A DNA stretch of 64,000 bases from positions 62,001 through 126,000 of the forward strand of contig JAJDUL010000020.1 in NCBI GenBank assembly GCA_022826685.1. The letters are read 5' to 3'. Source of the DNA: Gemmatimonadota bacterium. Its GTDB lineage: Bacteria; Gemmatimonadota; Gemmatimonadetes; Palauibacterales; Palauibacteraceae. This document shows, piece after piece, positions 3,683-5,434 of the stretch; within the stretch, counting starts at the first letter, position 1; every line of letters starts with the position of its first letter. The notes beneath the pieces were generated by a model. The model was not told where the DNA came from. It made no database searches and saw nothing but the letters and a program-made list of their open reading frames with translations. The translations under genes were made by a program, and so were the position numbers.

Positions 3683-4252
3683 TCAGGGCTCGGGCCACAC
3701 CTCCGGATCCCGCTCCATTTCGGGTTCCGGTTCGACGCCGAGCGCCTCGACCATGCGGACGTAGTAATTGAAGAAGCCGACGACTTCGGTCGCGGTCAGA
3801 ATCTGCGCGTCGGTCCAGCCTACCTCCCGCAACTCGTCGATGTCCCGCCGGGCGGTGGAGGTCGGATCGCGCGTGATCGCCACGGCATAGTCCATCAGCC
3901 GGTGCGTCTTCCTGTCGAGCCCCGCCGTCCGGTAGTCGGTGCGGATCGCGCGGGCCAGTTCATCGTCTCCGGTGGCCTGACGGAGATCCTCTCCGTGCGC
4001 CTCCGTTCAGTAGAAGCACTCGAGTTCGCGCGAGGTCACGGTCGCGAGCATCTCCCGCACGTCCCGCCCCAGCGGCCCCGGCGCGAGCATCAACGCTTCG
4101 TAGAGTTGAATCGAGGCGCGCATGACAGGCGGGTTCAGGCTCTGGATTCCGATCACGTTGAAGACACGCCCCGCGCGGCGGACGGCCTTGTCGTACTCGC
4201 GGGCGAGGAGCCCCTCCGCTTCGTCGGGAGCTACCGTCTCGATATACGGCAT
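3683..4252 (-). CDS. AhpD/CMD-family peroxidase-related protein, probable selenoprotein (in-frame TGA = Sec82)
   Basis: Reading from ATG 4252 (ribosome binding site AGGAGG, 5 bases upstream) gives 81 codons and then TGA at 4007-4009. The same frame continues for another 107 codons to the true stop at 3683. Read through, the 189-residue product matches the uncharacterized peroxidase-related branch of the carboxymuconolactone decarboxylase/AhpD family in length and along its whole course. The family's catalytic CxxC-xxx-H becomes Cys79-Phe-Tyr-TGA-Thr-Glu-Ala-His86, so the TGA replaces exactly the second, peroxide-reactive Cys. A hairpin suited to a bacterial SECIS follows. This would be a thiol/selenol peroxidase or disulfide reductase in the cytoplasm. 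It lies 60 bp downstream of, and likely co-transcribed with, the hydroxyproline dehydratase gene. The alternative is a Cys-to-stop mutation. No selA/B/C/D gene is in the window. Confidence 0.8.
3980..3996 (-). promoter_or_regulatory. SECIS-like hairpin just downstream of the in-frame UGA
   Basis: On the mRNA strand, ten bases after the UGA, ACGGAGA pairs perfectly with TCTCCGT around a GGA loop (7 bp stem). The loop begins 18 nucleotides after the UGA and has G in its first two positions. Both features fit the published bacterial SECIS consensus (loop 16-37 nucleotides after UGA, at least one G in the first two loop bases). It would be the binding site for SelB. Chance occurrence in GC-rich DNA cannot be excluded. 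Confidence 0.6.
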
Positions 4253-4312
4253 TTCGCCTCCTGTGGGCGGCGGATCCGGGGCGTGAATCGGCGCCCTGGC
4301 GGGACCGGCTCC

Positions 4313-5341
4313 TCAGCGCACGAGGAAGCCATCGCGCCACGGGTCGTCCGGATCGATGAGGAACTCGTGCCGTCCCGTCACCCAGGCCCGGCCCCCGACC
4401 TCGGGCACGACCGCCGGATGCTCGCCGACGGCCGCCGTGTCGACGATCCGGCCGCTGAACCGGCCTCCGATGATGCTCTCCACGATGATTTCCGCATCCC
4501 CGGAGATCTCCCCCCGGGCGCGAAGGATGGCCAGGCGGCCGCTCACCGCCGTCCCCGTCGGACTGCGGTCGAGTTCCCCATCGGCGAAGATGCAGACGTG
4601 CCGCGAGTGGTGCGCGGGATCCGCGGCCCGGCTGGTGAACACGGTGCCGTAGAGGAACCCCAGATCGGGGTCGTCGGGGTGGGAGATGTCGTCTCCCGCC
4701 GAGGAGGACACCGCGCGGGTGATCCGGCGCCCCGCGTCGATCAGGTCGGCGGCCGAGCTGGGCAGGAGCGGAAGCCCGAGCGCGTCGGCATCGACATAGG
4801 CGTAGAAGGCGCCGCCGAAGGCGAGGTCGTAGGACACCGTACCCAGCCCCTCCACCTCCACGGACTGCCCCAGCACGGGCGCGAACGAGGGCACGTTGAG
4901 GAACCGGACCTCACCGACCCGTTCGCCGTCCAGAATCGCGGTGGCGCGCACGAGGCCGGCGGGCGTGTCGATCGTCACCGGCCGCTCGTCCCCTGCCCCG
5001 TCGATCCAGCCGGCTTCGACCGCGATCTTCGCCACGCCGATGATCCCGTGGCCGCACATCGTCGAGTAGCCTTCGTTGTGCAGGAAGAGGACGGAGAAGT
5101 CCGAGCCCGGCCTCACCGGAGGCATCACGAGACAACCGTACATGTCCGCATGCCCCCGAGGCTCCCACATGAGGGCACGGCGGAGTTCGTCATGGTCTGC
5201 CCGCGCGACGCGACGCCGCGCGAGGACGGTATCCCCCTCCAACTCCGGGAAGCCCGCCACGATGACGCGCAGCGGCTCCCCCTCCGTGTGCGCATCGATC
5301 GTCTCGACGCGAACCCAATGCTCGGGAGCAGTCCAGGTCAT
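4313..5341 (-). CDS. trans-3-hydroxy-L-proline dehydratase (proline racemase superfamily)
   Basis: The predicted protein has 342 residues, the usual length of the proline racemase superfamily. The first catalytic motif 'STMCGHG' is intact (Cys96). In the second, 'DRSPTGTAVS', the usual Cys is Thr262. In characterised enzymes a Cys/Thr pair marks trans-3-hydroxy-L-proline dehydratase, which removes water to give delta-1-pyrroline-2-carboxylate, whereas Cys/Cys marks racemases and epimerases. It is cytoplasmic and serves amino-acid (collagen-type hydroxyproline) breakdown. The ATG at 5341 is chosen because of GAGGAG five bases upstream. The AhpD-like gene follows 60 bp downstream; the MIP channel gene is divergent. 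Substrate assignment is inferred from this one residue and the family. Confidence 0.85.
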   Translation of the reverse strand: MTWTAPEHWVRVETIDAHTEGEPLRVIVAGFPELEGDTVLARRRVARADHDELRRALMWEPRGHADMYGCLVMPPVRPGSDFSVLFLHNEGYSTMCGHGIIGVAKIAVEAGWIDGAGDERPVTIDTPAGLVRATAILDGERVGEVRFLNVPSFAPVLGQSVEVEGLGTVSYDLAFGGAFYAYVDADALGLPLLPSSAADLIDAGRRITRAVSSSAGDDISHPDDPDLGFLYGTVFTSRAADPAHHSRHVCIFADGELDRSPTGTAVSGRLAILRARGEISGDAEIIVESIIGGRFSGRIVDTAAVGEHPAVVPEVGGRAWVTGRHEFLIDPDDPWRDGFLVR

Positions 5342-5434
5342 GTAACTCCTCGGTGGGGTGGTGGCCGGTGGCGGCGGCATCTTCGTATGCTGGCGCCGCT
5401 GATTCTACGCCGTGTCGCCACTCGAGGAGAAGGC

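Follow-up and report, generated by a model that had tools for sequence, protein, structure and literature searches.

AhpD-like selenoproteins with a CxxU motif were described in 2005 in a study of the Sargasso Sea, within COG2128 (PMC1088965), and a further description followed in 2008 (PMC2398784). In a 2026 review, TIGR01926 with CxxU appears among the selenoprotein families (PMC13188914). These reports bear out the statement, made in an initial annotation of the DNA examined here, that AhpD/CMD-like selenoproteins occur in bacteria. The review does not mention Gemmatimonadota, and a literature search of limited coverage, confined to top-ranked titles, returned no papers on selenoproteins of this phylum. 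The Gemmatimonadota gene that we describe shares with the known family the TIGR01926 model, the CxxU motif, and a SECIS element immediately downstream (PMC13188914, PMC1088965). This kind of selenoprotein is already known, and the gene is a well-supported addition to the CxxU family, within which we also describe two SECIS placements. Through this gene, selenocysteine (Sec) use is tied to a common redox enzyme, and in a phylum of which few members have been cultured.

A TGA codon at the catalytic position of an AhpD-like gene

The gene occupies positions 3683..4252 of the window, the 64,000-nucleotide stretch of DNA that was analyzed, and is encoded on the minus strand. Translation from 4252 to 3683 yields 189 residues, including Sec82. 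On this strand, an AGGAGG ribosome-binding site (4257..4262) is positioned 4 nt ahead of the ATG, which begins a run of 81 codons that leads to an in-frame TGA (4009-4007), 107 further codons, and a terminal TGA stop (3685-3683). The internal TGA, codon 82, falls within the motif ELEC79-F-Y-U82-T-E-A-H86, where it occupies the position of the second Cys of C79-x-x-U82-x-x-x-H86. We read it as Sec based on the TGA found in relatives and the Cys found in stop-free homologues. The codon for Cys79 (TGC, 4016..4018, minus strand), the presumed resolving partner in CxxU, is invariant in our alignment. The initial annotation had reported a 189-codon frame with TGA at 4007-4009 and the Cys79/TGA82/His86 motif; its coordinates, numbering, and motif are correct, but it left the strand (minus) unstated. 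It had also called for a check for further stops, and none other than TGA82 interrupts the 189-codon frame. A gene of this form would be split or cut short by standard gene callers.

Homology continues unbroken past the TGA, as had been claimed. When the two halves of the protein were scored apart against the Pfam CMD profile, both matches were weak (E 0.083 and 0.056), whereas the halves joined through the TGA scored above the cut-off (E 1.6e-9). An open frame counts for little on its own here, since frames that remain open past a TGA are common at 70% GC: the window contains 280 in-frame TGAs preceded by at least 15 open codons and followed by at least 60. The abundance of such frames would also be compatible with a decaying gene, in which the TGA really terminates translation and the 107 codons beyond it are a relic. 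However, among 13 same-genus sequences, each from a different species and including that of the window, mean dN/dS was 0.193 before the TGA and 0.209 after it, and although the pairs compared are non-independent, the ratio is far from 1. As the value after the TGA matches the upstream value, the downstream part is translated and functional. Decay is also difficult to reconcile with a TGA that is always at the catalytic position phylum-wide and that co-occurs with selA (below), and we consider it highly improbable. A TGA at the catalytic Cys, followed by sequence under purifying selection, is not ordinary.

Conservation of the TGA and the selenocysteine pathway

A second concern was that the TGA might be a sequencing or assembly error and that the true codon is TGC or TGT, encoding Cys. 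The gene comes from a single MAG assembly, and TGA differs from the Cys codons by a single base. Nonetheless, TGA82 is kept in 12 of the 12 same-genus relatives aligned. Codon 82 is also TGA in eight named Palauibacter/Gemmatimonadetes contigs (a set that includes Candidatus Palauibacter species and overlaps with the 12 same-genus survey relatives), which are 90-95% identical in nucleotide sequence and were assembled separately in several studies. Because the close relatives all have TGA, and because TGA is present in 99 genomes of a phylum survey among the matches listed, the chance that an error created this codon is negligible.

The survey covered 395 Gemmatimonadota genomes, of which 187 contained family matches at E <= 1e-10. 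Among the matches listed, the TGA form was found in 99 genomes and the stop-free (Cys) form in 10, and the Sec form predominates among the best matches. We read the active site at 69 loci in the phylum, which comprised 59 with TGA in CxxU, 12 of them from the same genus, and 10 stop-free loci with CxxC; beyond the genus, the 57 loci divided into 47 with CxxU and 10 with CxxC. At every TGA-form locus read, the TGA sits in CxxU. Thus, the alignment that the initial annotation had proposed reveals TGA or Cys in the same column, with TGA in all close relatives.

The distribution of the two forms follows that of selA, which was detected in 95 of 99 TGA-form genomes and one of 10 Cys-form genomes (Fisher p 1.6e-9; this count concerns the listed matches only, and the genomes, being related, are non-independent). 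The four TGA-form genomes in which selA was not detected are all incomplete drafts (82-90% complete). Across the phylum, the contrast between Sec and Cys tracks the presence and absence of selA.

Two other homologues deserve mention. One (L082, G219:C149) contains, besides CxxU, a second in-frame TGA at match residue 22 (IYRUNSG), which could be an error or a second event. The other, in a Chloroflexi MAG (L026, 3001-3540), is 33% identical; it too has its TGA at the equivalent column, within CHYU.

A search for selA, selB, selC, and selD had been suggested as a check, and all four are present in the source genome (3.28 Mb in 73 contigs, about 91% complete). Using the Rfam model RF01852, we detected tRNA-Sec at 79.7 bits (cut-off, 47 bits), with an anticodon that ARAGORN assigns as TCA. 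The same genome encodes selB (369.6 bits), selA (498 bits), and selD (369.1 bits). The selD gene (L031, G000:C35:13378-14298) contains its own in-frame TGA within GAGUACK, so that the selenophosphate synthetase is apparently itself a selenoprotein.

UGA readthrough and changes in the genetic code exist elsewhere, and UGA82 could in principle be read as an amino acid other than Sec. This explanation, to which we assign very little probability, conflicts with several observations: the gene itself terminates in TGA, as do most of its relatives; a full Sec pathway and a SECIS hairpin are in place; and selA is mostly missing from the Cys-form genomes.

SECIS hairpins at two distances from the UGA

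Although the initial annotation did not mention one, a SECIS-type hairpin is present after UGA82. Its apical part, ACGGAGA-GGA-UCUCCGU (3980..3996, minus strand), consists of a 7-bp stem and a 3-nt GGA loop located 17 nt past the UGA. Folding of 47 nt gave a minimum free energy of -19.4 kcal/mol (z -3.2). Bacterial SECIS elements are expected to have a loop of 3-9 nt, a stem of 4-16 bp, a spacing of 16-37 nt, a minimum free energy <= -7.5, and a G among the first two loop bases (PMC13188914), and the hairpin agrees with all of these values. There was no convincing Rfam match at the hairpin. As the stem hardly varies, simple covariation is uninformative for the 17-nt hairpin, and we relied on third-position conservation instead. 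Over the 13 species, third-position diversity is zero in codons 85-91, the lowest of any 7-codon stretch in the gene (gene mean, 0.220).

With the sel genes, the TGA/Cys column in relatives, and the selection past the TGA, this hairpin supports the proposal of the initial annotation that the TGA is a real Sec codon. On the sequence evidence, we are highly confident that the gene encodes an AhpD-like, peroxidase-related (TIGR01926) selenoprotein with Sec at UGA82, presumably inserted via SECIS and SelB. In this process, SelB would bind the hairpin and so deliver Sec-tRNA to UGA82, where the ribosome would insert Sec rather than terminate.

Not all Sec-form sequences carry the hairpin at the same place. 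The 17-nt hairpin is 95% paired in Sec rows of that type, compared to 44% in Cys rows, which have not retained it. It is also missing from another 36 Sec-form sequences (44% paired). These contain a second hairpin, whose loop lies 24 nt past the UGA; it is 96% paired, and two rows carry a two-sided C-G to T-A change in it. The loops also differ, with GG in the 17-nt type and CGGGNN or CGTGNN in the 24-nt type. In a tree whose root is unsure, the 36 rows with the 24-nt hairpin all fall to one side of a branch with good support (98/88), and the change may have run in either direction. An interpretation that we consider somewhat more likely than not is that the SECIS of the Gemmatimonadota AhpD-like selenoproteins has been re-sited (17 versus 24 nt) while the Sec codon stayed fixed, a natural turnover of an RNA signal. 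The two placements offer a natural data set on how bacterial SECIS elements move.

Protein family, possible activity, and neighboring genes

The protein matches TIGR01926 over residues 3-178 at 126.8 bits (curated cut-off, 81.8). Its nearest solved relatives, both by sequence and by fold, are 2pfx, 2oyo, 3c1l, and 6k40, which match over nearly the full length and have CxxC-xxx-H at the same place; these proteins have Cys, whereas the window protein has Sec. In the fold search, 2pfx matched at E 2.3e-9, and the peroxidase-related structures were 26-35% identical. The predicted structure is an all-helical AhpD fold (mean pLDDT 80, pTM 0.77, from a shallow alignment of 9 rows). NF041238 (AhpD_rel_CFYUT, alkylhydroperoxidase-related (seleno)protein) has the same CFYUT active-site string as the window protein, which scores 47.7 bits against the 175-bit cut-off of this 357-position model and is related to that family rather than a member of it.

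In M. tuberculosis AhpD, the proton relay consists of Glu118, Cys130, His132, Cys133, and His137 (PMC3141380). The spacing of E67-C79-Y81-U82-H86 in the window protein equals that of this relay (PMC3141380), with Glu, Cys, x, Cys, and His at the same intervals. M. tuberculosis AhpD (1knc) belongs to a different subfamily, and its fold matches weakly (E 0.038, 12% identity).

By analogy with its family, the protein is predicted to have peroxidase activity, and its substrate and reductant are predicted on the same basis. In AhpD proteins and selenoperoxidases generally, the residue equivalent to Sec82 attacks the peroxide and that equivalent to Cys79 is the resolving residue. The probable substrate is H2O2 or an organic hydroperoxide. 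The Sec82 selenolate would attack this peroxide, after which Cys79 would resolve the selenenic acid to a selenenylsulfide that a thiol donor, such as thioredoxin, could reduce. Glu67, Tyr81, and His86 may form the proton relay, after the M. tuberculosis AhpD scheme.

Although unlikely, a job other than peroxide reduction is an alternative for this selenoprotein; it could, for example, be an adaptor for thiol-disulfide exchange or, like the AhpD-fold debrominase Bmp8, a reductive dehalogenase. AhpD-fold proteins are functionally diverse, Bmp8 (6ohi/6ohj) matches the fold, and deiodinases use Sec for dehalogenation. However, Bmp8 is just 13-14% identical, compared to 26-35% for the peroxidase-related structures, all AhpD relay residues are present, and the gene is found phylum-wide, with no link to halogen chemistry seen. 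We therefore favor a peroxidase-related role.

A proline racemase family gene (4313..5380; Pro_racemase E 5.7e-108), likewise on the minus strand, is located 60 nt upstream of the selenoprotein gene. This neighbor is conserved in eight close relatives and was seen solely in such relatives. From this arrangement, the two genes could possibly form a two-gene operon. The racemase gene was not found beside a 68%-identical homologue at L045, and for this reason we set the operon aside as a clue to function.

The same genome contains a second CMD-type selenoprotein candidate (L028, G000:C38:9306-9776, minus strand), which has a CRYU motif and directly follows a gene that reads as trpB. Despite 38% protein identity, this paralogue has almost the same SECIS hairpin as the window gene.
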